Below are positions 6,107 to 43,312 of a stretch of DNA of 64,000 nucleotides, in pieces. The notes under the pieces are model-generated. The model was not told the origin of the DNA, did not search any database, and was given only the letters and a program-made list of their open reading frames with translations. How positions within the stretch are numbered: the first letter of the stretch is position 1; each line of letters begins with the position of its first letter. The DNA comes from Burkholderiaceae bacterium (lineage in GTDB: Bacteria; Pseudomonadota; Gammaproteobacteria; Burkholderiales; Burkholderiaceae_C). The DNA lies in contig JAEUOY010000064.1 of assembly GCA_016790515.1 (NCBI GenBank), positions 1 through 64,000 on the forward strand, read 5' to 3'. A program made the position numbers and the translations under genes.

Positions 6107-7976
<1,870 letters not shown>

Positions 7977-27200: not shown

Positions 27201-30200
27201 CGCGGTTCTTCTGGACCGCTGGAGACCTGGGTCCATCCCCGCTCGCGCGGGGCCGCCCAGTCCAGCGGACGCCGTACCGGCGCCGCTGACGGTCCATCCC
27301 CGCTCGCGCGGGGCCGCCCTGGTCGTCTACCGGCACGGTCTGCAGCCTGGGGGTCCATCCCCGCTCGCGCGGGGCCGCCCACCTCGGCCACCAGGTGCAG
27401 CTCGGCATCGGCGGTCCATCCCCGCTCGCGCGGGGCCGCCCAAACGCAACGCCGACCCCGGCACTCTGTGGAGGGTCCATCCCCGCTCGCGCGGGGCCGC
27501 CCGGCTGGGGGGCGGGCCCGATGTTCCGCCTCCGGGTCCATCCCCGCTCGCGCGGGGCCGCCGTTGCAGACCAGACGATGCATCCCGGCCGACAGGGTCC
27601 ATCCCCGCTCGCGCGGGGCCGCCTGTAGCGCCAAGCCCCCACCCCGCACCCGTAAAGGTCCATCCCCGCTCGCGCGGGGCCGCCCGACCATGAAATCGCC
27701 GGACGCGGCTTCGCGGGGGTCCATCCCCGCTCGCGCGGGGCCGCCGTCTCCGCAGCCGGGGTCATTCGCCGGCTGCAGGGTCCATCCCCGCTCGCGCGGG
27801 GCCGCCGGCTGGGAGTGGCATTGTCATTGTTGACTAATGGGTCCATCCCCGCTCGCGCGGGGCCGCCCGCTCCGGGGCGGGTTTCTCGGCGTGGGGAAAC
27901 GGTCCATCCCCGCTCGCGCGGAGCCGCCGACGATCCGCGCGCCGGGGTCGACCTGCCCGAGGGTCCATCCCCGCTCGCGCGGGGCCGCCCGTGAAGAGCA
28001 AGGACGCCAACGTCTCCCACGGGGTCCATCCCCGCTCGCGCGGGGCCGCCGGCTACTCGGCTCGGGCGCCGGTTACCAAAACGGGTCCATCCCCGCTCGC
28101 GCGGGGCCGCCGTCGACGTGCGCCAGTCCGAAGGCGACATCATGGGTCCATCCCCGCTCGCGCGGGGCCGCCGCCGATGGCGTTGTGACGCCCAACCCGG
28201 CGCCGGGTCCATCCCCGCTCGCGCGGGGCCGCCTCGTTGATCGGGCTCGGCGTCATCGCGGCCATGGGTCCATCCCCGCTCGCGCGGGGCCGCCTCCAAG
28301 CGCGTGGCCGACGTCGGCGGCACCACGGGTCCATCCCCGCTCGCGCGGGGCCGCCCAACACCACTACCGTGACGATTATCAACAACGAGGTCCATCCCCG
28401 CTCGCGCGGGGCCGCCCGAAGCGATTCTTTCATCGGCAGGCGGGCAGGCGGTCCATCCCCGCTCGCGCGGGGCCGCCCGTTGCGGATCACGCGGCCGCTC
28501 CCGTCACGACGGTCCATCCCCGCTCGCGCGGGGCCGCCTCGGGCACCTACTGGCCCGAGCCGGGGGACTGGGGTCCATCCCCGCTCGCGCGGGGCCGCCC
28601 CAGGCCGCAGCACGCGCCGGCTGGCAACCCGGGGTCCATCCCCGCTCGCGCGGGGCCGCCGACCAGGAAGAGTGCAACGCGCTCGCGCGGGAGGGTCCAT
28701 CCCCGCTCGCGCGGGGCCGCCGCCCTCGTCGCGCATGCTGAGGCGGTCGTCGAGGGTCCATCCCCGCTCGCGCGGGGCCGCCTGCTGCAGGCCGGCGATG
28801 ATGGCCGCGCTGGTGGGTCCATCCCCGCTCGCGCGGGGCCGCCGTCAGCGCGGCCAGGCGCGTCGACGCCCAGGTGGGTCCATCCCCGCTCGCGCGGGGC
28901 CGCCTGCGTCGGCGCCCCAGTCCTTGTCAGCGCGTGGGGTCCATCCCCGCTCGCGCGGGGCCGCCTGTCGTGGTGTCGTCTTCGCCGGTCATGGCCGGGG
29001 TCCATCCCCGCTCGCGCGGGGCCGCCCTGAGGCCCAGATAGGCCGCGTCGATCTGCGGGGGTCCATCCCCGCTCGCGCGGGGCCGCCGGGCTGCTGCCCG
29101 CGGACTGGTGGGAGACCGCGGGTCCATCCCCGCTCGCGCGGGGCCGCCTGTTACACCGCGGGGTGCGCGGTCGAATTCATGGGTCCATCCCCGCTCGCGC
29201 GGGGCCGCCCACCGCGGTCTCGGCGGCCAGGTAGGCGGCGAGGGTCCATCCCCGCTCGCGCGGGGCCGCCTCGGCCAAGTTGTCGATGACGGCTCCGACC
29301 CAGGGTCCATCCCCGCTCGCGCGGGGCCGCCAGCAGCGTGGTGTTGGCGTCGTCGCGGCTGCGGGGTCCATCCCCGCTCGCGCGGGGCCGCCATGCTGAC
29401 CACCGTGTCCCGCATGGCCTCGCGGGGTCCATCCCCGCTCGCGCGGGGCCGCCCATTCGCGCATCGCCGGCGACTGGCCCAGGAAGGGTCCATCCCCGCT
29501 CGCGCGGGGCCGCCACCATGCCGTATGACACTGGCGCGGGTGGGTACGGTCCATCCCCGCTCGCGCGGGGCCGCCGTGTCGGCGCGCTGCTGGATGGTGA
29601 TGCGGCGGGGTCCATCCCCGCTCGCGCGGGGCCGCCTAGACCGGCTGGCACAGCGCCACGGTGATCCAGGGTCCATCCCCGCTCGCGCGGGGCCGCCGCC
29701 GAGTTCGTCAGCCTGGACGCCTACACCGCGGGTCCATCCCCGCTCGCGCGGGGCCGCCTGCAGACGCAGCGCCTTGGGCGTGTGGCGGTAGGGTCCATCC
29801 CCGCTCGCGCGGGGCCGCCGGCTCGGCGACCAGCCGTTCGAGGGTGGTCTGGGGTCCATCCCCGCTCGCGCGGGGCCGCCCAGTCGACGCCTCGGCTGAA
29901 CTCCGCCAGTGCGGGTCCATCCCCGCTCGCGCGGGGCCGCCTTTCACGGCCCGCGGGCCGATCAGCCGATCATGGGTCCATCCCCGCTCGCGCGGGGCCG
30001 CCTGTGACAAGAGCAAGCCGACGTGCATCGCGAAGGGTCCATCCCCGCTCGCGCGGGGCCGCCCAGACGTGGTGAAGCTGGCGCTGGCTGGCGGACGGTC
30101 CATCCCCGCTCGCGCGGGGCCGCCCCGCCCTGCCGTCACGATAGCCCCCCCCCCGAAGGTCCATCCCCGCTCGCGCGGGGCCGCCGCAAGGACGAGGCGG

Positions 30201-33200
30201 ATGCACGGGCGCAGGCGGGGTCCATCCCCGCTCGCGCGGGGCCGCCCGCGCACCTCGTAGATCAGCTCGCCGGTCGCGGGGTCCATCCCCGCTCGCGCGG
30301 GGCCGCCGCCGCTGGCCGACTACGGCAATCGCATCCCGAGGGTCCATCCCCGCTCGCGCGGGGCCGCCGCGGCCAAATAACTTCAAATGGGGCCATTCCC
30401 GGGTCCATCCCCGCTCGCGCGGGGCCGCCAGGACTTCATTCACCGCACCGTGAGCGACTCGGGGTCCATCCCCGCTCGCGCGGGGCCGCCATCTTCGGGC
30501 TCTTCTCGGCCTTTTCGGTGTACGGTCCATCCCCGCTCGCGCGGGGCCGCCGGCATGGCCTTCGGCCAGCAGGGCCTGCAGCAGGGTCCATCCCCGCTCG
30601 CGCGGGGCCGCCATTGGCGGCCCTTGTGGTCAGGTGAGCTTGGCGGGTCCATCCCCGCTCGCGCGGGGCCGCCAGCTTCTTGCCTGGGAACCCGCCGCCC
30701 GTGGTGGGTCCATCCCCGCTCGCGCGGGGCCGCCCGGCCACAGCCAGGCGGTGCACGGTAACACCAGGGTCCATCCCCGCTCGCGCGGGGCCGCCTCCCA
30801 GCAGCTTTCGCCGCGGAAGTCCTCGACGGGTCCATCCCCGCTCGCGCGGGGCCGCCGCTCGCGGCCAGCTCGAGCAGCCGGCGCGATAGGGTCCATCCCC
30901 GCTCGCGCGGGGCCGCCATGTAGGCATTGAGCACGGCGACGCTTGATTCGGGTCCATCCCCGCTCGCGCGGGGCCGCCGCGCCGGTGCCGGACTTCAGCA
31001 CCAGGCGGTGGGGTCCATCCCCGCTCGCGCGGGGCCGCCCGGTGCAGTCCCTGAGAGAGGCGCTGTTGGGCGGGTCCATCCCCGCTCGCGCGGGGCCGCC
31101 GAGGCGTGGGCCTCGGCATGGGGCATCCGGCAGGGTCCATCCCCGCTCGCGCGGGGCCGCCGGCACCTCGACCAGGCCGCCGAAGGTGGTGCCGGGTCCA
31201 TCCCCGCTCGCGCGGGGCCGCCACGGCCCCGGCAGCATCGACCCGCAGAAAGAAGGGTCCATCCCCGCTCGCGCGGGGCCGCCCCGGGGCGCAGCTGGCG
31301 GAACAGATGCAGCACGGGTCCATCCCCGCTCGCGCGGGGCCGCCCGAGGCGCTGAGCGCGCTGTGGCACGTGGTGAAGGTCCATCCCCGCTCGCGCGGGG
31401 CCGCCTCCTCGCCGCGCTCGCGCACCACCCGGAACAGGGGTCCATCCCCGCTCGCGCGGGGCCGCCGATGTCAAGCCAAGCCGACCACGTGATGGCTGGG
31501 GTCCATCCCCGCTCGCGCGGGGCCGCCCGATTGACCTGATGACGTGGTGCATTGACAAGGGGTCCATCCCCGCTCGCGCGGGGCCGCCTCGTCGAGCTTG
31601 GTCGCCGCGGCCGCGAACGGGGGTCCATCCCCGCTCGCGCGGGGCCGCCAAGCCCCGCCGCCGCCACCACATGCGCAGAAGGGGTCCATCCCCGCTCGCG
31701 CGGGGCCGCCGCACAGATGCTCGGTGATCCAGCACCCGGCAAGGGTCCATCCCCGCTCGCGCGGGGCCGCCTCCTCCTCGGTCTCCTCGGTCTCGGTGAT
31801 CTCGGGTCCATCCCCGCTCGCGCGGGGCCGCCTAGATGATGTCGCTGGCGATCACCGGGAAATGGGGTCCATCCCCGCTCGCGCGGGGCCGCCGAGCCTG
31901 TAAGGAGAGCAACCATGATCCGCAAGGGTCCATCCCCGCTCGCGCGGGGCCGCCAAGTCGAGCTGGCCCATGGCCTTGCCCGATCCGGGTCCATCCCCGC
32001 TCGCGCGGGGCCGCCATTCGGTCCGCCGTGCCGACGCTGACCCTCACGGGTCCATCCCCGCTCGCGCGGGGCCGCCAAGCCCCGTTCGTGCTCTAGCGGT
32101 GCCCGGCAGGGTCCATCCCCGCTCGCGCGGGGCCGCCACCATCGTCTCGCTGCACCCGCTGAACAGCCAGGGTCCATCCCCGCTCGCGCGGGGCCGCCGG
32201 CCTCGATGCTGTCGTTCACGGCCTGGCGCAGGGTCCATCCCCGCTCGCGCGGGGCCGCCCAACGGCGGGTGAGTTCATCTTGTTTCTCCAAGGGTCCATC
32301 CCCGCTCGCGCGGGGCCGCCGTGAAGGACAGCGTGCAGTCGGTGGCCGATGAGGGTCCATCCCCGCTCGCGCGGGGCCGCCCCACCTGATGCAGGTGCCT
32401 TCGTGGATGCCGAGGGTCCATCCCCGCTCGCGCGGGGCCGCCCTCATCGCGGGCTTTCCGCCTTGGCAGCGGCGGGGTCCATCCCCGCTCGCGCGGGGCC
32501 GCCTCCAGCGCGCTCATGGGCATGTAGTCGATGGTGGGTCCATCCCCGCTCGCGCGGGGCCGCCCGAGACCGCTGCCGCCGACGACCACGTCGACGGGGT
32601 CCATCCCCGCTCGCGCGGGGCCGCCCCGCCGGTGCCGCTGCAGAACTGGCAGGTCACGGGTCCATCCCCGCTCGCGCGGGGCCGCCCTGGGCGGGCTGTG
32701 GGTGCCGAGGCCGTTCGGGGGTCCATCCCCGCTCGCGCGGGGCCGCCCCGCTGCCGATGCTGTGCCCGTGCCAGCCGATGGGTCCATCCCCGCTCGCGCG
32801 GGGCCGCCCGCTGGGCGCGGCCGATGGCGATCTGCACCGCGGGTCCATCCCCGCTCGCGCGGGGCCGCCGCCGACCTCTCGCACCTGTGAAGAGGCCGAA
32901 CGGGTCCATCCCCGCTCGCGCGGGGCCGCCGAACAGGTCACGCCGATCGTCGCCGCCGCGGGGGGTCCATCCCCGCTCGCGCGGGGCCGCCCACCAGCGC
33001 GGGGGTTTCTCTTTGCGGGTCCAGGGTCCATCCCCGCTCGCGCGGGGCCGCCGTTCCCGTCGGTGCTGTTCGACCTGGCCGCCGGGGTCCATCCCCGCTC
33101 GCGCGGGGCCGCCTGTGCGGATCACGGTCCAGCGTCGCCGCCAGAGGGTCCATCCCCGCTCGCGCGGGGCCGCCCTGGCAACGAACGACAGATAGGCATC

Positions 33201-33418
33201 AAGGTCGGGTCCATCCCCGCTCGCGCGGGGCCGCCCCGCCGCCGGCGGCGGTGAGACTGGCGGCGGTGGGTCCATCCCCGCTCGCGCGGGGCCGCCGCCG
33301 CGCCGCTAGGTGTCGGCTCGAATTGCGTGGGTCCATCCCCGCTCGCGCGGGGCCGCCCTCGATGCTGGCCACCATCGACTTGGTGTCGCGGGTCCATCCC
33401 CGCTCGCGCGGGGCCGCC
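24241..33418 (-). CRISPR. Type I-E CRISPR array, 151 repeats, 150 spacers
   Basis: 28-bp repeats at a 61-bp period: starts at 24241, 24302 and 24363 through 33391, with every checked repeat falling on an exact multiple of 61. Each repeat has a 6-bp stem (CCCCGC/GCGGGG) and a 4-nt loop. Read on the minus strand it ends GCGGGGATGGACC, giving the 8-nt handle AUGGACC plus one variable base, typical of I-E. Spacers are 32 nt plus that base. Transcription runs from the leader at 33419 toward 24241, in the same direction as the cas genes. Variant repeats occur at 24302, 25827, 26071 and 27901, all in the older half. Open frames crossing the array are artefacts of a stop-free repeat. Confidence 0.98.
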
Positions 33419-33470: not shown

Positions 33471-33773
33471 TTACTTGGTGGAAACCCGATGCATCAGCAA
33501 TGCGCCGTCGATCTGCACTGGTCGGCGCGACGGGGTGCCGAGTGTCCGCACCGCGATGCCACCATCGCAGGACATGTCTGGGTACAACAAGGTGAGCGAC
33601 CCCTGTCCGAGTGCCGCATGCCAATCGGATACCACGCGCCAGAGCTTGTCGCGTGCCTTCGGTGTCAGGCTCTTGCTGACGTACACCCCTGGAGACGCCT
33701 CAAGCATGGCCGACGCCAAGAAACCGCGGAAGCGGTCCTCCACGTCACGAGTGATCAGCACCGTCAGGCCCAT
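33471..33773 (-). CDS. cas2: CRISPR-associated endoribonuclease-like Cas2e
   Basis: 100-residue Cas2 of the I-E type. It starts MGLTVLITRDVEDRFRGFLA and has the ferredoxin-like pattern with SPGVYVSKSL, comparable to the VRAGVYVG region of E. coli Cas2. Cas2e forms the dimeric core of the Cas1-Cas2 integrase. The gene overlaps the end of cas1 by 29 bp and is the last cas gene before the leader. Confidence 0.95.
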   Translation of the reverse strand: MGLTVLITRDVEDRFRGFLASAMLEASPGVYVSKSLTPKARDKLWRVVSDWHAALGQGSLTLLYPDMSCDGGIAVRTLGTPSRRPVQIDGALLMHRVSTK

Positions 33774-34641
33774 CGCGCTCCAGCCCCAGTCCCAACAGGC
33801 TCTTGATGTCGTCGATCATCGAGGCGATCAGCTGCTGGCGCCTGAACTCGCGCGAGGCGGTCTGCCGGACCAGGCGGTCGATGGGCTGGTCCTCGCCCTG
33901 CGTCACGCGCTTGGCGACGTGGAAGGCGATGCGCAGCGTCACCGCCTCCCGGTACAGGTCGGCCACATCGAGCACGAACGACTGGTCGGAATCCTCGTGG
34001 ACGAAGCCCAGCTGTGGCAGTGCCGATACCGCCGTGACCGCGATCGCGGCGGCTGCCTGCACGGCCGACGCAGCGTGGTTGATGGCCTGGTTGGCGGCGT
34101 CGGCCTCGTCGGGTCGGTGGCGGTCGTAGCGCCGGCCCTTCCAGGCCAGACCGAAGGACTGCGCCAGCAGCTTGTAGCTTTCCTTGACGCGCGCGCCCTC
34201 GATGCCGCGCAACACCTCGATGTCGCGGTGCGGCAGTATTTCGCCCAGCCGGCGGGCGTACATCTTGCGTGCCGTGGCCACGCGGGCCTTGTCGTCGGCC
34301 CACAGCCGGGCCTGGGCACGCGCCACGTCCGAGCGGTCGGGCCCCAGCGGCGGTGCGGTGTAGATCCGGGTGCCCTCGGTGCCCACCGCCACCAGCGCCG
34401 TGCCGTGGCGGGCCAACAGGCGCAGCACGTCGTGAGTCAGGCTGGTGCCGGGGCCGATCAGCAGTGCCGAGATCGTCTGGTGCGGCAGCTGGTAGTCGCC
34501 GGCCGGCAGCACGCCGCCGCCGGAGCTGAAGCCCAGGCAACCGTCGACCACGCTCAGCTGGCCGCGGTCCAGGTAGAGCAGGCCGTGCCGGTCGGCATGG
34601 GCGATCTGCACCCGTTCCAGACCGAGCCGGCCCTTGAGCAT
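33745..34641 (-). CDS. cas1: CRISPR integrase Cas1e
   Basis: 298-residue Cas1 of the I-E subtype, the metal-dependent integrase for new spacers. The catalytic residues align with E. coli Cas1: Glu148 in RGIEGARVKE, His215 in LGFVHEDSDQ, and Asp225/Asp228 in SFVLDVADLY. Its ATG shares one base with the cas6e stop (TGATG). The C-terminus is charged, as usual. Active-site intactness plus a very long array argues for a functional adaptation module. Confidence 0.97.
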   Translation of the reverse strand: MLKGRLGLERVQIAHADRHGLLYLDRGQLSVVDGCLGFSSGGGVLPAGDYQLPHQTISALLIGPGTSLTHDVLRLLARHGTALVAVGTEGTRIYTAPPLGPDRSDVARAQARLWADDKARVATARKMYARRLGEILPHRDIEVLRGIEGARVKESYKLLAQSFGLAWKGRRYDRHRPDEADAANQAINHAASAVQAAAAIAVTAVSALPQLGFVHEDSDQSFVLDVADLYREAVTLRIAFHVAKRVTQGEDQPIDRLVRQTASREFRRQQLIASMIDDIKSLLGLGLERDGPDGADHS

Positions 34642-35390
34642 CAGCCGCTCCGGTGGAAGGCTCCGGGCGGCGCCAGCAGCAGGCAGCCGAAGCCGAAAGC
34701 GCGGTGCCGACCGAGTCCGCGCGCCAACAGCGCGCCGAATGCCGCGCCGTCGCCCACGCGCAGGCTGCCGCGCACGGTCAGGTCCGGCAGCCGCCCGCGG
34801 CGGCCGTGCCGAGGCGCGGCGCCGGCCTGGGTGCGCCGCACCATGTCGGTCAGGTGGAAGCTCACCGTTTCATGCCCCAGCCACTCGGCGGCGCCGCCGC
34901 GAGCCAGCTGGGCGCGCAGCCATGCGGCATAGGCCGCGACTCGGTCGCCCGGGGTCGACGCGAGGTCGGGGTGGTAGGCGGCGTCGATCTCGACATAGGC
35001 CCCTTCCGCCCGGGCGCGGCTGCGCACCACCGGTGCCACCCGCACCTCGAAACTGAAGCGTTCGCCGGCGCGCCAGTCCTGTGGCATCGGCTTGGCCAGC
35101 AGATCGTGCAGGCGCAGCGCGGCGGTGGCTTCGGGGTCGTGGTTGTCCAGCGCCGCGGCGCGGGCCAACTCGTCGGGGTGCGCCGCGGTGTAGCCGACCA
35201 GCTCGGCCTGACCGGCGCGTTGCCGCAGCGCGAAGGGTTTCGGCGCCAGCGAGCCCAGCGCGGCCCGCGTCGCGGCGTGCAGGGCATAGCCCGGATCGTC
35301 GGCGGCGTCGCGCAGGCCGCTGGCGCGCGCCCAGCGTGCCAGCCGCACCATGTCGGGCTGCAGGCGCACCAGTGTGAGCGCGTCGGTCAT
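34641..35390 (-). CDS. cas6e: crRNA-processing endoribonuclease Cas6e (CasE/Cse3)
   Basis: 249-residue RAMP protein that cleaves the pre-crRNA at the base of each repeat hairpin and stays bound as part of Cascade. It carries the N-terminal histidine of the GYALHAATR segment (His38), matching the catalytic His of Cse3, and the glycine-rich C-terminal GLGRHRAFGFGCLLL loop. The start MTDALTLVRLQ overlaps the cas5 stop by 4 bp. The upstream extension of the open frame shadows cas5. Confidence 0.95.
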   Translation of the reverse strand: MTDALTLVRLQPDMVRLARWARASGLRDAADDPGYALHAATRAALGSLAPKPFALRQRAGQAELVGYTAAHPDELARAAALDNHDPEATAALRLHDLLAKPMPQDWRAGERFSFEVRVAPVVRSRARAEGAYVEIDAAYHPDLASTPGDRVAAYAAWLRAQLARGGAAEWLGHETVSFHLTDMVRRTQAGAAPRHGRRGRLPDLTVRGSLRVGDGAAFGALLARGLGRHRAFGFGCLLLAPPGAFHRSG

Positions 35391-36103
35391 GGCGTGGTGG
35401 TCGCCGGCGCCAGCAGTTCGCGGATGGTCTGCTGGCCGGCATGCACGTCCAGCGCGAAGCGTCGCTCGTCGCTGCTGCGGTGGCCGATCTCCGGGCCGGG
35501 CCAGGCGACGGCCGGGTCGCGGCAGAACAGCGCGGGTTCGGCGTCGGCGTCGTGCGACAGCGGGCACTGCGCCAGCGCGGCCACCGTGTCGGCCGCGTCG
35601 ACCAGGCCGACCAGCAGCCGTTGCGAGGGCAGGCAGTTCTTGCGGCCGATGAACAGCGGCCGTGCCGGGTGTTGCAGCGCGGCGGCCAGGTCGTCCAGCG
35701 TCGGCGCTTCGTCGGTCGGGTCCAGCCGCAGCGCCACGGCCAGGGAAGCGTCGGCGCGGTAGTTGCGCCAGCGGATGTGCGGCGCGTCGTAGGTATTGGC
35801 ACCGCCGGCCCGGGTCTCGACCGTGCCACGCGTGGTCCAGCCACTTTCGTCCGCGTGCAGCTGGGCGGTCTGGAAGTCGGTGAAGGGATGGCCGGCGCGG
35901 TCGATGCGGGCGGCCCAGCGCAGGCGTTCCTGCAGCCGGTCCAGCGCCGCGGGACGGTCGCGGCGGCAGCCCAGCGCATTGCCCAGCAGGCCGGTGAGCA
36001 GCGAGGCTGCGGGCCAGCGCTGCACCGGCCGCCGCTGGTCCACCGCCGGGCTGCCCAGTGACAGCATCGGAGCCTCCAGCCGCAACAGCAGGTGCGCGGA
36101 CAC
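35387..36103 (-). CDS. cas5: Cascade subunit Cas5e (CasD)
   Basis: 238-residue RAMP protein holding the 5' handle of the crRNA. It begins at a GTG (36103) as SAHLLLRLEAPMLSLGS and carries the family's RRPVQRWPAASLLTGLLGNALG segment. It abuts the cas7 stop with two bases between and overlaps cas6e by 4 bp, so the genes are translationally coupled. Confidence 0.94.
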   Translation of the reverse strand: MSAHLLLRLEAPMLSLGSPAVDQRRPVQRWPAASLLTGLLGNALGCRRDRPAALDRLQERLRWAARIDRAGHPFTDFQTAQLHADESGWTTRGTVETRAGGANTYDAPHIRWRNYRADASLAVALRLDPTDEAPTLDDLAAALQHPARPLFIGRKNCLPSQRLLVGLVDAADTVAALAQCPLSHDADAEPALFCRDPAVAWPGPEIGHRSSDERRFALDVHAGQQTIRELLAPATTTP

Positions 36104-36105
36104 GT

Positions 36106-37344
36106 TCAGGCCTCGGGCTTTGCGGCGACCGGGCTGCCGACTTCGGTCTGCAGCCAGTCCACCAACCCGCCCAGCGGCAGCTGCGCGATGTCGGCCAGTG
36201 CCGGCGGCGTCACGCTCATTTGGCGCCGCTGGGTCTGCACGCCGTAGGCGGCGTCAAGCTGCTGCAGATGGGTCTGCAGCACGGCCATCGCACCGGCGAA
36301 CACGTCGTCGCCGCCGCCGTCGCGCGGCAGCGGCACGGCCTTGCGGAAGGCATTGGCCAGCGTGCGCGGCTGGTCGTCGCCCAGTTCCACCAGCAGCCAC
36401 TCGGCATGGGCGAAGGGGGCGGTCGAACCCTTCTTGGCGCCGGGCGAGACGCGCGCGACAAGCTGCAGCAGCCGCCCGGCGACTTGCCCTGCCAGTGCTG
36501 CATCGCCGCCGAGGTTGGCCACCAGCAGGCCGACGTCGATGTTGACGTAGCCATAGAACAGCCCGCTGGTCAGTTCGACGTCGAACATCCCGGCCGAACC
36601 GGCGTCGGCCTCCGGGTCGCGGTTGCGCAGGTCGTCCACCGCAGTGGCGAAGTCGAGGTCACGCTCCATCGCGTGCACGGTGAAGGCGTGGGCCACGTGC
36701 ACCGGCGCATCGCGGTTGGCCGCCGGGTCCGACGTGACCATGCGGCCGAACAGCGCCGATTCCAGCCCGGCTGCCGCGGCGCCCAGCGCCCGAAGGTTCT
36801 TGCGCAGGTCCTGCAGCGCGTCCTTCAGGGCTTCGGCCAGGGCCTTCTCCTGCGCCTTGTTCGGTTTGCTGTCGGCCGCCAAGCCCGCGACGCTGGCCTG
36901 GCCGATCTCCAGCAGCGCTCGGGCCTGCTGGACCAGATAGTCGATCTCGGGGTGGCCGAAGAACAGGGCCTGCCTGCTCTTGGCGTCCTTGCCCTTGTCG
37001 CCATAGAGCGCGACCAGCAGCGCATCGGCCACCGCAGCCTGCACCGCCGGGTGCACGGTGAGGCCTTCCAGCGCCCGAGGCAGGATGGCGCCTTGCACCA
37101 CCTCCTTGGTGCGTTCGCCCATCGGGCGGCCCAGGCTTTGCAGCGAGAAGGGCACGCGTTGCGCCGCCACATGGTCGGCCTCGCCGGCAAAGCGCCAGTG
37201 CCGCTTCAGGCTCTGTGACGAGATGCGGGTCCGTGTGCTGCCGCCGAAGGGCAGACGCTTGGCCATGCCCGCGTCGTCGCGGTTGATCAGCGCGGCCGGG
37301 TAGCTGGCCAGGCTGTGGATCTGAATGAAGCGGGGCAGGGTCAT
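36106..37344 (-). CDS. cas7: Cascade backbone subunit Cas7e (CasC)
   Basis: 412-residue RAMP protein, six copies of which coat the spacer in type I-E Cascade. The N-terminal MTLPRFIQIHSLASYPAALINRDDAGMAKR... and SSQSLKRHWR are typical Cas7e motifs. The start at 37344 is supported by a strong AGGAGG about 8 nt upstream; the longer frame lacks one. It is longer than E. coli Cas7 (about 363), mainly because of an insertion rich in Ala/Lys (about 155-200). A 77-bp gap separates it from cse2. Confidence 0.96.
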   Translation of the reverse strand: MTLPRFIQIHSLASYPAALINRDDAGMAKRLPFGGSTRTRISSQSLKRHWRFAGEADHVAAQRVPFSLQSLGRPMGERTKEVVQGAILPRALEGLTVHPAVQAAVADALLVALYGDKGKDAKSRQALFFGHPEIDYLVQQARALLEIGQASVAGLAADSKPNKAQEKALAEALKDALQDLRKNLRALGAAAAGLESALFGRMVTSDPAANRDAPVHVAHAFTVHAMERDLDFATAVDDLRNRDPEADAGSAGMFDVELTSGLFYGYVNIDVGLLVANLGGDAALAGQVAGRLLQLVARVSPGAKKGSTAPFAHAEWLLVELGDDQPRTLANAFRKAVPLPRDGGGDDVFAGAMAVLQTHLQQLDAAYGVQTQRRQMSVTPPALADIAQLPLGGLVDWLQTEVGSPVAAKPEA

Positions 37345-37421
37345 CGCGGGGTCCTCCTGATCGTGAGTTGCTCTGGTGTGCGGACGTGCGGCTTGGTGCA
37401 CAGGGCTTTGGCGCGCGCGGT

Positions 37422-38003
37422 TCAGGTTGCGGCGGGCCGGCCCGCCGCGGCCTTGGCCGCCACGGCCCGCAGGTAGCCCTGGACAATGCGCCGGCGTGCG
37501 TGGTCGGCCCGCATCAGGGTTCGCGGGTCGTCGCGGTCGGCCAGCGCCAGATCGGCCAGGGGCTGCCAGTCGACGGCGGTGCCGGCCGCAGCCAGCCTAC
37601 GGGCCAGGGCAGGCAGCAGGTCGGCCAGCAGCGGAGTGTCGGCCTCCACCAGCTGACGCAGCCGTGCCTCGCTGAGGCCTAGCTCGGCCAGTCGCGCACC
37701 GGTGTCCAGGCGGGGCTGGTGCGCACCCTGCACGATGGCCAGGCAGTGCACGAGCAGGCCCCAGCGCGGCTGCAGCGCGCTGCCCGGCGGCAGGTCCAGA
37801 CCGGCGTCCAGCAGCACCTGCTGCACTTCGAATACGTTGTGCCGACCCTCCTGTCCCGGATGGAATCGGCGAAGCGCGGCCAGCAGGCCGCGGTCCACGT
37901 GTGGTGCCGAAAGGCGCTGCGCGATGCGCAGCAACGGGTCAACCTGGCGGGCGGCGTCGGGCTGGCCGACCTGCGGATCGGGCGTGTCAGGCGAGGTCGA
38001 CAT
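37422..38003 (-). CDS. cse2: Cascade small subunit Cse2 (CasB)
   Basis: 193-residue all-helical small subunit that stabilises the R-loop. It matches Cse2 in FHPGQEGRHNVFEVQQVLLDA and the C-terminal DWQPLADLALADRDDPRTLMRADHARR region. The start overlaps the cse1 stop by 17 bp; the longer frame upstream is a shadow of cse1. Confidence 0.92.
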   Translation of the reverse strand: MSTSPDTPDPQVGQPDAARQVDPLLRIAQRLSAPHVDRGLLAALRRFHPGQEGRHNVFEVQQVLLDAGLDLPPGSALQPRWGLLVHCLAIVQGAHQPRLDTGARLAELGLSEARLRQLVEADTPLLADLLPALARRLAAAGTAVDWQPLADLALADRDDPRTLMRADHARRRIVQGYLRAVAAKAAAGRPAAT

Positions 38004-39597
38004 TGGCGGTCTCCGTGGCGGGCGCGTCGGCCGGTGCGGCCGGCAACAGGTGCCGGAAATGCTTGAACAGGCCGCCGACGAACACCCGTTCGGCGCGTGC
38101 ACGGGCGAATACCCGCGAGCGGTCGCGGCTCGGCAAGGCTTCGCAAGCCTCGGCGACCAGGGCGTCGGCCACGGTACGCAGCTGGGCCAGCCAGCGGCTC
38201 TCGGCTGCGCTGTCATCCAGATCGGCCTCCAGCGTGGCGAACAGCAGGCCGTAGAACACCTCGTCGACCTGCTGGTCGAAGCGGGCGACCCAGGGCGCGA
38301 CGAACTTCGCGAAGTCGTTGTTCTGCCAATCGGGCTCGTCGCTGCCATCGACGAATTGCAGCAGCGCGGGACGCAGCACCTTGCCCTGCAGTGTGCCCGC
38401 CATGTCGACGAATCGCTGGGCTCGCTGCGCCAGCTCGTCGCGGTGCTCGGCGAAGTGGCGCAGCGCCCGCCCGCGCAGCGGGATCTCGCGGCGCAGCAGC
38501 CCGTCGCTGCGGCCCGAGCCGCCTACCAGCACCTGGGCCAGCAGCGCGCCGGCGTGTTGCTCCTGCGGCGTCGGGCGGGCCAGCAACGGCAGCACGCAGC
38601 GCGCGCCGTCGAACAGGATCGGTGACAGGCTGCGGTAGCCGAAGCTGCCGGCGTGCGCGGTCAGCGCCTTGGTGCTGCCGTCTTTGCTGTCCTTGACCAA
38701 AGGCAGCCAGGGGTCCATCACGACGCCGTTGCGGTCCTTCGCATCGACGCGGGCCGTGGCACTGGCCGCGGTGAGGGCCTGCAGCGTGTCACCCTCGCGC
38801 CGTAGCCGGACCCGACGACACACCTCCAGGCACAGAGGGTGCACGCTCGCCAGCGCCAGCGGTGCAGCGCCCCAGGGCGTCAGCCAGAGCAGTCGGTGCT
38901 CCAGCGCGGTGCCGATGCCGTGCGCGTCCAGCGCCTGCTCGCGCAGGTTCTCGGCCTGGGTCAGCAGCGCCGTCAGGTCGCGCCGGAACTCCGGACCCGA
39001 TCCCCGTTCGACGACGAAGCGGAACTGTGGGCGCGAGCTGAAGCCGCCGTTCATGCGCATGGTGTTGTAGTTGCCGGCCCCCAGGAAAGCCGAGAAGCCC
39101 TGCAGCGAGACGAGCGCAAACACCAGCGCATCGACCTCGCCAGCGCCGGCCAGCGGCAGCTTGCCGGACTTCTCATCGTGGTGCTTGCTGGTGATCAGCA
39201 GGTCGATGTCCTGCGCCGAGTCCAGCACGCGCCGGTAGTCGGCCTGTCCGCCCGGCAGGCAAGGCGACTGCAGAAATGCCGGTTGCAGCCAGTCGTCGAC
39301 GACCAGACACCAGGACACGTCGTTCGGATGGTCAGCCGTCAGTGCCCGCAGCAGGCTGCGCCAGTCGGCGCCGTCGATGGGTGGGGCGTCGCGTCCGGCC
39401 AGCTCCAGGGCCAAGTAGGCCAGCTGCACCAGGAAGGCATGCCAGGCCGGCTGTTGGTGCGGCCGCAACAGGGGGAAGTCAAGCGCCTCGCCGGCGGACA
39501 TCCTGGCCAGCAGTTCGGGGAGGTCGAGCCGGGCGGGCGCGCCGCCCGCTGGCCGCACCAGGATCAGCGGATCGGTCAGCAGGTTCAGAGCGCGCAC
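37987..39597 (-). CDS. cse1: Cascade large subunit Cse1 (CasA/Cas8e)
   Basis: 536-residue large subunit that reads the PAM and recruits Cas3. It starts at a GTG as RALNLLTDPLILVRPAGG, matching the NLLTDPWIPV start of Cse1. Diagnostic parts follow: AGNYNTMRMNGGFSSRPQ and TPWG in the middle and a four-helix bundle at the C-terminus. A GGAG sits about 9 nt before the GTG, inside the repeat-like element at 39605-39684. Expression could therefore be affected by processing of that RNA. Confidence 0.95.
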   Translation of the reverse strand: MRALNLLTDPLILVRPAGGAPARLDLPELLARMSAGEALDFPLLRPHQQPAWHAFLVQLAYLALELAGRDAPPIDGADWRSLLRALTADHPNDVSWCLVVDDWLQPAFLQSPCLPGGQADYRRVLDSAQDIDLLITSKHHDEKSGKLPLAGAGEVDALVFALVSLQGFSAFLGAGNYNTMRMNGGFSSRPQFRFVVERGSGPEFRRDLTALLTQAENLREQALDAHGIGTALEHRLLWLTPWGAAPLALASVHPLCLEVCRRVRLRREGDTLQALTAASATARVDAKDRNGVVMDPWLPLVKDSKDGSTKALTAHAGSFGYRSLSPILFDGARCVLPLLARPTPQEQHAGALLAQVLVGGSGRSDGLLRREIPLRGRALRHFAEHRDELAQRAQRFVDMAGTLQGKVLRPALLQFVDGSDEPDWQNNDFAKFVAPWVARFDQQVDEVFYGLLFATLEADLDDSAAESRWLAQLRTVADALVAEACEALPSRDRSRVFARARAERVFVGGLFKHFRHLLPAAPADAPATETANVDLA

Positions 39598-39704
39598 CGG
39601 CCGGCTCCGGTCCCCGCTTGCGCGGGGTACAAGCCCGTTCTGGCTTCAACCAATGCGGACCATCTCCGCGGCGGCGGAGTGGCATCGTTGTGGTCGGAAT
39701 ACAT
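39585..39704 (-). CDS. Candidate 39-codon leader ORF upstream of cse1
   Basis: ATG at 39704 with AGGGAG seven bases upstream, the best ribosome site in the region. The frame runs through both repeat-like hairpins and ends 10 bases inside cse1. The peptide begins MYSDHNDATPPPRRWSALVE and is not recognised. It may be a small CreT-like toxin, a leader peptide affecting hairpin formation and cse1 translation, or chance. Its body is the hairpin element, so coding conservation is doubtful. Confidence 0.35.
   Translation of the reverse strand: MYSDHNDATPPPRRWSALVEARTGLYPAQAGTGAGRCAL
39605..39684 (-). ncRNA. CreR/CreA-like crRNA-like element: two pseudo-repeats around a short pseudo-spacer
   Basis: Two hairpins resembling the array repeat lie between the cse1 start and the intergenic region. 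The first (39657-39684, minus-strand 5' side) matches the repeat at 19 of 28 bases with handle ATGGTCC, and one stem pair has changed from C-G to T-A on both sides (stem CTCCGC/GCGGAG). The second (39605-39632) has the exact repeat stem CCCCGC/GCGGGG. Stem-to-stem distance is 52 instead of 61, so the pseudo-spacer is about 9 nt short. Cas6e cleavage would give a crRNA-like RNA starting CATTGGTTGAA after the 8-nt handle. Such elements in cas operons are known Cascade guides for repression. Confidence 0.75.
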
Positions 39705-39721
39705 CAAAAAGCTCCCTGATG

Positions 39722-39735
39722 AACCATTGATTGAA
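39722..39735 (+). promoter_or_regulatory. Predicted target of the pseudo-spacer (AAC plus 11-nt seed match)
   Basis: AAC at 39722-39724 is followed by CATTGATTGAA, identical to the first 11 bases of the pseudo-spacer (CATTGGTTGAA) except at position 6. Position 6, like 12, is flipped out and not read in type I-E Cascade. Matching stops at position 12. The site overlaps a possible plus-strand -35 TTGAAA (39731-39736, with GATCAT at 39754-39759, 17-bp spacer) for mntA-hepT. It also covers the likely start region of minus-strand transcription into cse1. Confidence 0.65.
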
Positions 39736-39825
39736 AAATTGGTTTCTTAAACAGATCATGCTTGTTGCCCGACCACTCGGTAAATCAGCTCAAACCCTGT
39801 GTACGGGGCGCTATCCTCGGCGGCC

Positions 39826-40116
39826 ATGAAGCCGTCCGCAGCTCTGTCCTCGCATCGGATCGCGGTGCGTCGCCTGGCCGCGCGCTTCCACACCGCCAAC
39901 CCGCGCGTATTCGGCTCGGTCGCGCAAGGTGTGGACCAGGACGGCAGCGACCTCGACCTGCTGGTCGATGCACTGCCCCAGGCCACCTTGCTGGACCTGG
40001 GCGGTCTGCAGGCAGCGCTGGAAGACCTGCTGGGGGTGCCGGTGGATGTGCGCACCCCGCTCGACCTGCCCGCCTCCTTCCGCGACGAGGTGCTGCGTCA
40101 GGCGCAACCGGTGTGA
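39826..40116 (+). CDS. mntA: MntA-type nucleotidyltransferase antitoxin
   Basis: 96-residue minimal nucleotidyltransferase with the signature GSVAQGVDQDGSDLDLLVD (Gly30-Ser31, then Asp42 and Asp44). In characterised HepT-MntA pairs this enzyme adds AMP to a HEPN tyrosine and so silences the toxin. The ATG at 39826 is preferred; a GTG at 39799 would add nine residues. It is encoded opposite to the cas genes, between cas3 and cse1, and overlaps the hepT start by 4 bp. Confidence 0.88.
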   Translation: MKPSAALSSHRIAVRRLAARFHTANPRVFGSVAQGVDQDGSDLDLLVDALPQATLLDLGGLQAALEDLLGVPVDVRTPLDLPASFRDEVLRQAQPV

Positions 40117-40484
40117 AGCCCGAACGCCGCGCCGACTACCTGGCCCACATGGTCGATGCGGTGCAGACCGCGCTGTCCTACGTGGCTGGCATGGACCGCG
40201 ATACCTTTCTTTCCGACCGCCGCACCCAGCAGGCGGTGCTGCACAACATCCTGGTGCTGGGCGAGGCGGCGACACAGCTGGGCCAGGCCGCGCCGGATTG
40301 GGTGTCCGCTTGTCCCGAGATCCCCTGGGCCGGGCTGCGCGGCATGCGCAACCGCATTGCGCACGGCTATTTCGACATCGACCTCGGCGTGGTCTGGACC
40401 ACGGTGCACGACGCCATGCCGGCGTTGCTGCCGCAGCTGAGGGCAGCGCAGGCTCGCCTGGCAGCTGATCCGCCTGCGGGCTGA
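40113..40484 (+). CDS. hepT: HepT-type HEPN ribonuclease toxin
   Basis: 123-residue helical HEPN protein (DUF86 type). The catalytic RX4HXY motif is intact as RNRIAHGY (Arg79, His84, Tyr86); the Tyr is the residue modified by MntA in known pairs. It starts at a GTG overlapping the mntA stop (GTGA). It ends 13 bp from the convergent cas3 stop. HEPN toxins cleave RNA, including tRNA or mRNA. The position inside the cas operon suggests linkage to CRISPR immunity, by co-mobilisation or direct control. Confidence 0.9.
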   Translation: MKPERRADYLAHMVDAVQTALSYVAGMDRDTFLSDRRTQQAVLHNILVLGEAATQLGQAAPDWVSACPEIPWAGLRGMRNRIAHGYFDIDLGVVWTTVHDAMPALLPQLRAAQARLAADPPAG

Positions 40485-40497
40485 TCCGCCCGTCGGG

Positions 40498-43224
40498 TCA
40501 GGCGGGCCGCAGCCCCAGGCGGTCGTAGCGCAGCGTGGCGCCGGCCACCGCGAAGCTCAGGGCGACCTCTCCCCGATCCAGCGACTCGATCTCCGGGGGT
40601 GAGGAGGAGGGCGTCAGCTTGGGCAGCATCCAGCGTGGCACGGTCAGCTGTGTCAGCTGCTGGCCGAGCGGGCTGGTCCAGGGCCGGGGCAGGTCGATGT
40701 CGACGCCCTCCAGCCCCAGGCGGGTGCGCGCCACGTCGCCCAGGTCGGTCCAGGCGCTCTGGTTCCAGTCCTCGTCCCAGCGCACCAGCAGCGGCGCGGC
40801 CTGGCCCGCCTGGCCGGCCTGTTCGCCCAGGTACTCGAGGCGAGCGGTGGGCCAGACGCCGCCCAGTTCGCCGGCCAGTGCATCCAGGCGCGCGCCGTCG
40901 GCGCCGGCCTCGACCAGGCCGCGGTTGTGGTCGGGGATCAGCCACTCGGGCCGGGTCTGCATGTCCTCCAGCAGGCGCAGGCAGGCCTCGATGGCCACCA
41001 GGTTGTTGTAGGCGCCGCGTCTGCCCAGACCGAGGCCGCGGCCACCTCCCGGCACGAGCAGGCCGGACAGGTCGCGTTCCTCGGGCGTCAGTACCACGAC
41101 GTGCGGGCTGCGGTACCCGGCTGGTCGCCACGCGTCACGGTCCCGGTGGCGGTGCAGTCGGCCCAGGCGTTGCAGCAGCACGTCGATCGGGACCAGGTCG
41201 CTGACCATCAGGTCGGCGTCGCAGTCGAGGCTGATTTCCAGCGTCTGCGTGCCCACCAGCACGCGCGGCCGGGTGTCGCACGCCGCGGGCTTGCCGAAGG
41301 TCTGCTCCACCGCGGCGTCCAGACAGCGCCGGTCTTCGAAGGCGTAGCGGCCATGGTGCATTGCGACCGTGTTGGTCGTGCCGGCGCGAAACAACGCCGG
41401 GTGGTCTGCGCCCATTCGCTGTTCGATTGCCTGCTGCGTGGCCAGCGCCTGGGCCACGGTGTTGCGCAGCACCAGAACGCGGGCGCCGGCGGCCACCGCG
41501 CTGGCCACCCGCTCGGCCACACGTTCCGGGTCGCGCATTGCGGTCAGCAGGCTGCGGCCGATGCGGCGCTGCGGCGCTGCGCGTTGGCAGGCCACCAGGG
41601 CCCGGGCGTCGGCAATACACGGGTAGGGCGCCTCTCCTGCTGCCGCCGGAGCCGCGTTGCCGCTGGGTGCGCCCCAGGCCCGTTGGCGCTGCCCGGCTTG
41701 CAGCAGCCGAGATCGAGCCTCGCCGGTCAGCGTGGCCGACATCAACAGGCCGTGCCCGCCGGCGCGAACGTGCCGGTGCAGCGCCGCGCGCAGCAGCGCC
41801 GTCATGTAGGCATCGGAGGCATGGACCTCGTCCACCACCACCAGCGCGCGCAGCAGCGCCGTGCCGCGCAGGTGGGCATGCTTGGTTTGCAGCACGGACA
41901 GCAGGAACTGATCGATGGTTCCGGTGGCAAGGGCAGCGGCGAAGTAGCGCTTGCCATGCTCAGCGGCCCAGTACAGCGGGCGCGTCACCGGGTCGTCCGG
42001 CCAAAGCACCTCGAAGCCGGCCAATGGCTTGCCCTCCTTGCCGTTGGCGCGCAGGTAGCCCGGCACCGCCAGCACAGTGTTGGGCCGGCGCGCCGGTTCC
42101 GGGAACAGCCGCTCGACGAAGCTCTGCACGCGTTGCGCGATCGCGGTGGCCGACACCCTCGTCGGCAGCAGAAAGCACAGCGCGTCGACCAGGCCGGCTT
42201 CGAACAGGACCTTGAAGCGCCACAGCGCAGCCTCGGTCTTGCCGCTGCCAGTCTCGGCCTCGATCACCACCAGCGGGCCCAGGTCGGTGCGGCCGGCGTG
42301 CTGCTGCACATCGCGCGGGTCGTGTCCGTCGAACAGGGTCTGGAAGCTGGGCTGGCGCTTTCGCAGGTCCGCGCGCAAGGGTTCGACGTCCAGCCGCATC
42401 GCGCGCAGCACCTCGGCCGCGCGCTGTTGCGCCATAGGCCAGCGGGTCTCGTCCTGCGGGCCTTGTATGTTCTGCGGGTCCAGCTGGTAGGGGAAGAAGC
42501 CTGCGTCGGTGTTGGAGGCAATCCAGTCCGCCAGCGATACCAGCCCGGCAAACGCATGCACCAGCGGGGCGTCTGCGCGCAGCGGTGGCGCATCCGCCGC
42601 AAAGGCCTCTGGCAGCAGCCGCCGCACGGCGGTCTGCAGCCGGGCCAGACCGCGGGCGGGGTGGTAGCCGTCGACGGGATGGGTCCAGGCGGCCCGGGCC
42701 TCAGTGACGCGCTTTGCAAGGTCGTCGCGGGTCTGCGGGCTGCCGTGGTGCGAGATCGCAGCCAACCAGAGCGACAGCACCTGCTCCTGGCCTGCCGGGT
42801 CGCCGCCCCAGGCCAGCACCGTGTCCACGCCCAGCGCATCGCGCAGCGGCTGCAGGCTGCGATCGCCGTCGAACAGCGGGGCCACCACGGCCACATGCCC
42901 GAGCGCCGCGCCACTGGCCCGTGACGAATGGCGCCAGGCCAAAGCGACTGGCTCAGGCAGCGCCTTGGCGTAGAAGCCGGCGCCGGCCTTGCCGACGTCG
43001 TGCAGGAAGGCAAGCGCGCAAAGGCGCGCCAGATCAGTGGGCGTGAGCGGCCGTCTCGCCAAGCTGTCGAGCCTTGCCCGCCACGTCGGCAGCACCAGCA
43101 GCGCCTGGGTGACCGCCGCGACGTCGATACAGTGCGCGACCAGGCTCAGGCGCGGCGCCTGGCCGGGGTCGACCGCGCGGCGGTCCAGCTTGCCCCACGC
43201 TTCCGGCAACTCGTGCGTGCTCAT
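40498..43224 (-). CDS. cas3: CRISPR helicase-nuclease Cas3
   Basis: 908 residues combining an N-terminal HD nuclease (His31, His75-Asp76 in LAFLHDVGKAG, ISHHG near 158) and a superfamily 2 helicase with Walker A ETGSGKTE (324-331), DEVH box (465-468), SATLTGEAR and a QRLGRLHRHR arginine-finger motif. Cascade recruits it to degrade the displaced strand. The start MSTHELPEAWGKLD is chosen; an ATG 19 codons upstream adds no conserved sequence. It is separated from cse1 by the inverted mntA-hepT pair, so it probably has its own promoter in 43225-43312. Confidence 0.96.
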   Translation of the reverse strand: MSTHELPEAWGKLDRRAVDPGQAPRLSLVAHCIDVAAVTQALLVLPTWRARLDSLARRPLTPTDLARLCALAFLHDVGKAGAGFYAKALPEPVALAWRHSSRASGAALGHVAVVAPLFDGDRSLQPLRDALGVDTVLAWGGDPAGQEQVLSLWLAAISHHGSPQTRDDLAKRVTEARAAWTHPVDGYHPARGLARLQTAVRRLLPEAFAADAPPLRADAPLVHAFAGLVSLADWIASNTDAGFFPYQLDPQNIQGPQDETRWPMAQQRAAEVLRAMRLDVEPLRADLRKRQPSFQTLFDGHDPRDVQQHAGRTDLGPLVVIEAETGSGKTEAALWRFKVLFEAGLVDALCFLLPTRVSATAIAQRVQSFVERLFPEPARRPNTVLAVPGYLRANGKEGKPLAGFEVLWPDDPVTRPLYWAAEHGKRYFAAALATGTIDQFLLSVLQTKHAHLRGTALLRALVVVDEVHASDAYMTALLRAALHRHVRAGGHGLLMSATLTGEARSRLLQAGQRQRAWGAPSGNAAPAAAGEAPYPCIADARALVACQRAAPQRRIGRSLLTAMRDPERVAERVASAVAAGARVLVLRNTVAQALATQQAIEQRMGADHPALFRAGTTNTVAMHHGRYAFEDRRCLDAAVEQTFGKPAACDTRPRVLVGTQTLEISLDCDADLMVSDLVPIDVLLQRLGRLHRHRDRDAWRPAGYRSPHVVVLTPEERDLSGLLVPGGGRGLGLGRRGAYNNLVAIEACLRLLEDMQTRPEWLIPDHNRGLVEAGADGARLDALAGELGGVWPTARLEYLGEQAGQAGQAAPLLVRWDEDWNQSAWTDLGDVARTRLGLEGVDIDLPRPWTSPLGQQLTQLTVPRWMLPKLTPSSSPPEIESLDRGEVALSFAVAGATLRYDRLGLRPA

Positions 43225-43312
43225 TGGCCCAACCTCGCGCCAGACAGTGAGGCAAACGCCCTGGCAGCGGCCATCGGCCATAGGGCTGCGTGGCCGACGA
43301 TCGGCGTATCGC

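Follow-up and report, generated by a model that had tools for sequence, protein, structure and literature searches.

A predicted CreR-type guide before cse1 in a bacterial type I-E CRISPR–Cas locus, and its recurrence with unrelated guides

A degenerate mini-CRISPR between cse1 and mntA

The window, i.e. the whole 64,000-nt stretch of DNA analysed here, carries a complete type I-E system on its minus strand, comprising cas3, cse1, cse2, cas7, cas5, cas6e, cas1 and cas2 together with a CRISPR array. A mntA–hepT-type gene pair (39826–40484) sits on the opposite strand between cas3 and cse1. The genes and the array are arranged as follows.

24241–33418, minus strand: CRISPR array of 151 repeats with a 61-nt period
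33471–38348, minus strand: cse2, cas7, cas5, cas6e, cas1 and cas2
37987–39597, minus strand: cse1 (cas8e), with a GTG start
39826–40116, plus strand: mntA-type antitoxin nucleotidyltransferase gene, divergent from cse1 (NCBIfam match below cut-off)
40113–40484, plus strand: hepT-type HEPN toxin gene (PF01934, 8e-25; NCBIfam match below cut-off)
40498–43281, minus strand: cas3, full-length

The array repeat is 29 nt long (GGCGG-CCCCGC-GCGA-GCGGGG-ATGGACC, 151 copies). The array is itself very long, with all 151 repeats on the 61-nt period and 149 of its 150 spacers distinct. The mntA-like protein is fitted better by the PADLOC candidate models PDC-S09 (best E 9e-27) than by NCBIfam MntA. Because the mntA–hepT pair intervenes on the opposite strand, transcription of the cse1 operon most likely starts from a separate promoter within the gap at 39690–39826.

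Within the cse1–mntA interval, on the cas strand, lies a unit of degenerate repeat, short spacer and repeat at 39612–39682, outside the array and beside the cas operon.

39656–39682, minus strand: psiR1, a degenerate copy of the array repeat (sequence and RNA fold)
39628–39655, minus strand: psi-spacer CATTGGTTGAAGCCAGAACGGGCTTGTA, 28 nt from the handle to the psiR2 stem
39645–39655, minus strand: seed CATTGGTTGAA of the psi-spacer, from the sequence
39612–39627, minus strand: psiR2 stem CCCCGC-GCAA-GCGGGG, from the sequence; its PRASG-type coding is found likewise in Cse1 homologues

psiR1 reads CTCCGC-CGCC-GCGGAG followed by ATGGTCCG, with its stem at 39664–39679 and its 5′ handle ATGGTCCG at 39656–39663; this handle is retained, showing one change from the array's ATGGACC within the first seven bases, and that of psiR2 is degenerate (ACCGGAGC). 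Stem pair 2 of psiR1 is T-A where the array repeat (CCCCGC/GCGGGG) has C-G, both sides having been altered, and the same pair is T-A in the relative L004 and A-T in L005. RNA folding yields both hairpins (z −2.33, with 4 of 200 shuffles equally good), and a cas6e gene is present in the window's cas operon. The distance from handle to next stem, which is 37 nt in the array, is 28 nt in the window and L004, 26 nt in L005 (in the register used) and 37 nt in L006 and L044. The initial annotation had described two degenerate repeat copies around a short pseudo-spacer between cse1 and mntA, one of whose hairpins had exchanged C-G for T-A on both sides; the first description holds base for base at 39612–39682, and the second in pair 2 of psiR1.

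An upstream seed match flanked by a plausible PAM

The psi-spacer has limited seed complementarity to a site on the plus strand in the gap upstream of cse1.

39722–39735, plus strand: predicted Cascade target, PAM AAC plus CATTGATTGAA, matching at 10 of the 10 read seed positions
39725–39756, plus strand: predicted 32-bp Cascade footprint, with pairing confined to the first 11 positions

The footprint estimate is based on the standard type I-E protospacer length of 32 bp. Set against the plus strand at 39722 (AAC followed by CATTGATTGAAA), the guide CATTGGTTGAAG matches at positions 1–5 and 7–11 with a mismatch at 6, and from 12 through 23 the pairing fails. This agrees with the earlier description of ten matches among the first eleven bases, a sole mismatch at position 6 and an end at 12. 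The distance of about 70 bp given there is correct when measured from spacer to target.

In type I-E of E. coli, repeat base 29 is PAM-derived. This base is C in 138 of the 151 array repeats of the window, which makes AAC plausible as the PAM of its system; it is also C in 20 of 21 repeats in L005 and 22 of 23 in L006. A comparison of array part 24241–32000 (of 24241–33418) with phages gave no convincing protospacer for the PAM. The ten positions matched here are exactly those, 1–5 and 7–11, that CreA of H. hubeiense requires according to the extract of PMC8501985.

We assessed the match against 256 nt of upstream sequence on both strands with 20,000 dinucleotide shuffles. All ten read positions were reached in 23 of the 20,000 without a PAM and in none with an AA PAM. 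Among the 150 real array spacers compared with the same region, one attained 10/10 without a PAM and none exceeded 8 with an AA PAM. The target site is the sole occurrence of AANCATTGNTTGAA in the assembly (5.0 Mb, 82% complete). The shuffles and this single occurrence uphold the earlier judgment that a chance match is unlikely. With the PAM and the full seed both there, the guide could in principle be a self-targeting one that provokes cleavage or primed acquisition; yet pairing covers 11 positions and fails at 12–23, and the site is intact alongside a full-length cas3, so that we hold this reading to be extremely improbable.

Recurrence of guide and target before cse1

Relatives were collected by Cse1 searches over 1,995 genome entries, which include repeated searches of some genomes, with Cse1 matches in, e.g., 17 of 399 (family) and 14 of 200 (phylum), the window's own genome included; a scan of named genomes (4 loci) and plasmids (6 records) supplied further loci. 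Viral contigs with a Cse1 alignment gave 47 pattern matches, none of them a relative. Two-hairpin elements lie directly 5′ of cse1 in the window, in L004 (a Paucibacter MAG, Cse1 63% identical), in L005 (a Burkholderiales MAG, 55%), in L006 (Chelativorans intermedius, 36%) and in L044/L069 (Cse1 64% identical to L006). When each guide is compared with its own upstream region, the window, L006 and L044 score 10 of 10 read positions, L005 scores 8 and L004 scores 7. Cross-pairing the 5 guides with the 5 upstream regions, the score of 10 is reached only by the own pairs of the window, L006 and L044, and the 20 non-own pairs score at most 8. A chance seed match was rejected on the shuffles, the array-spacer control, the single genomic occurrence and this cross-pairing.

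The individual pairs differ in their details. The L006 guide pairs as far as position 17 except at 6 and 12, fails at 18 and has a site flanked by AAT, not AAC, and the L044 guide pairs at all of positions 1–11. A different layout is found in L047/L073, where a single antisense repeat lies before cse1, between cas3 and cse1 (at about 6238–6400 of the L073 reverse complement), and the L073 guide pairs at 11 of 11 positions with a site that has an AAC flank and lies in the ribosome-site region of cse1. The first hairpin of L047 resembles a sense repeat, but the real repeat copy there is antisense. Out of 20,000 shuffles each, a score of 10 with an AA PAM was hit by 2 for L006, 0 for L044 and 0 for L073, and without a PAM by 18, 7 and 4, respectively. 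L005 reaches its 8/10 with an AAC flank (shuffle p 0.019 with AA, 0.3 without). In L004 the upstream region gives at most 7/10, and the 11.5-kb locus contains no site with 9 or more matches (register 8); L004 retains both hairpins, with the psiR1 stem reduced to 4 bp. Hairpins kept with the seed match lost is the combination that the initial annotation had named as speaking against its proposal, and it does occur in this one relative. The support from L005 and L004, the nearer relatives, appears weaker than that from the loci in which the full match recurs.

To search without reference to the known elements, 50 type I-E stretches were scanned with their arrays masked for a handle-like heptamer behind a hairpin, with matches sought within 350 nt. 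L007 and L075 are apparently one contig, with equal length and identical sequence before cse1, which leaves 49 distinct stretches, and a default repeat was used in the 14 of the 50 where array detection found none. The set excludes fragmentary or weak cse1 hits (L025–L028, L035, L036, L063, L064, L066, L068), the plasmid hits H5 and H6, and repeat loci (among them L037–L043 and L067). The scan returned 1169 candidates with handle and hairpin and 20 perfect ten-position seed matches, 4 of which have an AA PAM (three AAC, one AAT), namely those of the window, L006, L044/L069 and L073. These four elements lie 66–145 nt before cse1, and their guides are unrelated. One of the remaining 16 perfect matches is 560 nt before cse1, inside the window's hepT, and the others are at least 1.6 kb from cse1. 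The element was seen in 6 of the 50 stretches, 4 of which have the full seed match. Thus a test on sequence features, i.e. hairpin and handle, AA-type PAM and the read seed positions, singled out three loci besides the window. This recurrence, of unrelated guides that share place, PAM type and read positions, is the main evidence for the predicted function, and the four loci with a perfect seed match and AA-type PAM before their own cse1 back the CreR/CreA-type reading first proposed for the window.

The same data bear on a further reading, in which the element is only the remnant of a short, defunct CRISPR array and the seed match a coincidence. One of the 150 array spacers likewise attains all ten matches in the upstream region when no PAM is demanded, and L004 resembles such a targetless relic. 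Against this, match and PAM together appeared in 0 of 20,000 shuffles, the arrangement is repeated in four loci with unrelated guides, the two-sided stem change preserves pairing, and the handle is retained. A relic is therefore very unlikely.

Traces of the element are also seen in the nearest Cse1 homologues (at most 83% identical), which were mostly compared as proteins and so reveal hairpin parts, not seeds. In 9 of the 120 homologues listed, one of the 120 being the window's own, an in-frame N-terminal extension contains a PRASG-type stretch, equal to the psiR2 sequence as read in the window's frame, that stands 13 residues ahead of the L.LLT start. In 5 of these 9 (P0003, P0006, P0010, P0013, P0027), a Met stands exactly 12 residues before that stretch, a spacing that equals the position of the ATG in the window's psiR1 handle; the Met codon is uncertain in four of the five because Met is the first residue there. 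P0027 also keeps AAEMV, as in the window's reading of psiR1. For 78 of the 120 homologues the start-motif filter gave no fit; two of these, P0036 and P0047, are not among the nine but show similar traces by eye. These traces suggest that the hairpin parts and their spacing persist while the guide portion differs. We take the N-terminal extensions of these homologues to be spurious. In P0003, P0006, P0010, P0013 and P0027, the start of Cse1 has apparently been called on or close to the CreR handle, which produces false extensions that betray a CreR.

Predicted autorepression and related systems

The gap that contains the target has two predicted promoters, a weak one toward cse1 and a stronger one toward mntA.

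39731–39759, plus strand: predicted promoter toward mntA, TTGAAA-17-GATCAT (9 of 12 matches, 0.1 expected)
39755–39784, minus strand: weaker predicted promoter toward cse1, TTTACC-18-CATGAT, from the promoter score

The scores in the gap are 7.3 cse1-ward and 10.3 mntA-ward, and the −35 of the mntA-ward promoter falls mostly inside the seed; no strong cse1-ward promoter is predicted in the window's cse1–mntA gap, the best one facing mntA. L006 and L044 have strong predicted cse1-ward promoters (TTTACA-17-TATGAT and TTGAAA-17-TATTTT), whose −35 adjoins the PAM side of the target.

This raises the possibility that the guide mainly serves the toxin–antitoxin pair, with Cascade–CreR silencing mntA–hepT as a CrePA-like guard and the effect on cse1 a by-product. 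In line with it, the gap's best predicted promoter faces mntA and has its −35 overlapping the seed, and L005 has a divergent yefM–yoeB pair in the same cas3–cse1 slot, where the weaker L005 target lies on the best −35 predicted in the yefM direction. However, in L006, L044 and L073 the element precedes cse1 with no such pair between cas3 and cse1, and L072 has in this slot a divergent mntA (L072:7382–7672) 65% identical to the window's, with a Cse1 identity of only 39%, and no such element was seen before its cse1. Moreover, with an antitoxin encoded in the pair itself, its derepression would not have to be toxic. We regard this reading as improbable. L049 carries a DUF6364 and PIN pair in the slot on the same strand, and here too no CreR-like element was found before cse1; in L072, no hepT was recognised by Pfam in the one ORF tried behind mntA. 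The slot is thus common to neighbours, and control of the toxin–antitoxin pair stays a prediction, in which mntA–hepT may be co-repressed. No report linking MntA–HepT with CreR appeared in a search of open-access papers.

A further feature of the element is an ORF that runs through it.

39585–39704, minus strand: leader ORF of 39 codons, with GGGAG before its ATG, traversing the predicted CreR and overlapping the cse1 start by 13 nt

Leader ORFs are found in 4 of 5 loci, with 39 codons in the window, 38 in L004, 78 or 90 in L006 and 75 in L044 (L069), and none in L005. Each has a GGGAG-type ribosome site and an ATG upstream of psiR1 and stops within cse1, 4 to 13 nt past its start; that of the window opens ATG TAT TCC GAC. 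Each alone is a 2.5–5% event (75–142 of 3000 shuffles), and their joint rarity is post hoc because the pattern was noticed before its test. The arrangement suggests that ribosome and Cas6e may compete for the same RNA. It could also fit a CreTA, in which the guide acts as an RNA antitoxin against a small toxic RNA whose gene lies between the target and psiR1: a ribosome site and ATG begin a leader ORF upstream of psiR1 in the window, L004, L006 and L044, and in the window, L006 and L044 this start is on the downstream side of the target. But no leader ORF has tandem AGA, AGG, AUA or CUA codons, and the leaders, far from stopping within a few codons, continue into cse1, which leaves a CreTA quite unlikely.

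Based on these features, the unit at 39612–39682 is probably a type I-E CreR that would guide Cascade to repress the cse1 operon. The CreR would be transcribed within the 5′ leader of the operon and cut by Cas6e at the hairpins, releasing a crRNA-like small RNA with a predicted 5′ end of AUGGUCCG. Loaded with this guide, Cascade–CreR would bind the AAC-flanked site (39722–39756), presumably without cleavage because only 11 positions pair, and would likely lower cse1–cas2 transcription. The predicted footprint takes in the start region of the weaker promoter toward cse1 and covers most of the mntA-ward promoter; from the latter, co-repression of mntA–hepT would follow. Repression would ease once array crRNAs or anti-CRISPR proteins draw Cascade away, as the extract of a review describes for CreR, whose repression is relieved by abundant array crRNAs or anti-CRISPR proteins (PMC12737573). 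A more elaborate scheme is a self-metering two-way switch, in which CreR comes out of a translated leader ORF coupled to cse1. A given cas transcript would then either serve translation or yield, through cutting by Cas6e, one copy of its own repressor, and Cascade–CreR would shut the divergent promoters of cse1–cas2 and mntA–hepT together; we offer it tentatively, as an unlikely extension, and if true it would tie a protein toxin–antitoxin pair to Cascade levels.

Self-control of the CreR type has already been described in other microbes, and the locus adds a well-supported bacterial type I-E instance of this RNA-guided control. Its independent recurrence shows that guide and target remain paired even though the guide sequence turns over. 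It also raises two questions: does translation of the leader ORF compete with Cas6e for a shared RNA, and is a protein toxin–antitoxin pair coupled to Cascade levels? The primary paper on CreR is reportedly Liu et al. 2023.

Among known systems, the CreA of haloarchaeal type I-B CreTA, as given in the extract of PMC8501985, shares the psiR1-psiS-psiR2 order with divergent repeats, the use of seed positions 1–5 and 7–11 only, and a PAM-flanked promoter target, the promoter being a predicted one in the window. In contrast to that system, the window lacks a creT-like mini-ORF carrying rare codons in tandem, and its subtype and PAM are different; without such a mini-ORF under the targeted promoter, we did not assign it to CreTA. 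CrePA, as outlined in the extract of PMC12737573, shares a protein toxin gene near a Cascade-guided target (predicted here). Its CreP is a protein toxin that usually bears a KilA-N domain and has the CreA RNA as its antitoxin, whereas the window has a complete protein pair, mntA–hepT, whose control by Cascade is predicted. Since mntA precedes hepT as a protein pair, we did not assign it to CrePA, where a protein toxin has an RNA antitoxin only. CreR, the cas-regulating RNA, is known from types I-B, I-E and V-A according to the extracts of PMC13131331 and PMC12737573, the former of which states its presence in type I-E. With CreR, the window shares a mini-CRISPR with degenerate repeats beside the cas operon, limited seed complementarity before the cas genes and predicted autorepression. 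It may differ from published CreRs in its shortened spacer part (28 versus 37 nt from handle to next stem), in a target that overlaps the predicted promoter of the divergent mntA–hepT, and in the nesting of the element in a leader ORF that overlaps cse1.
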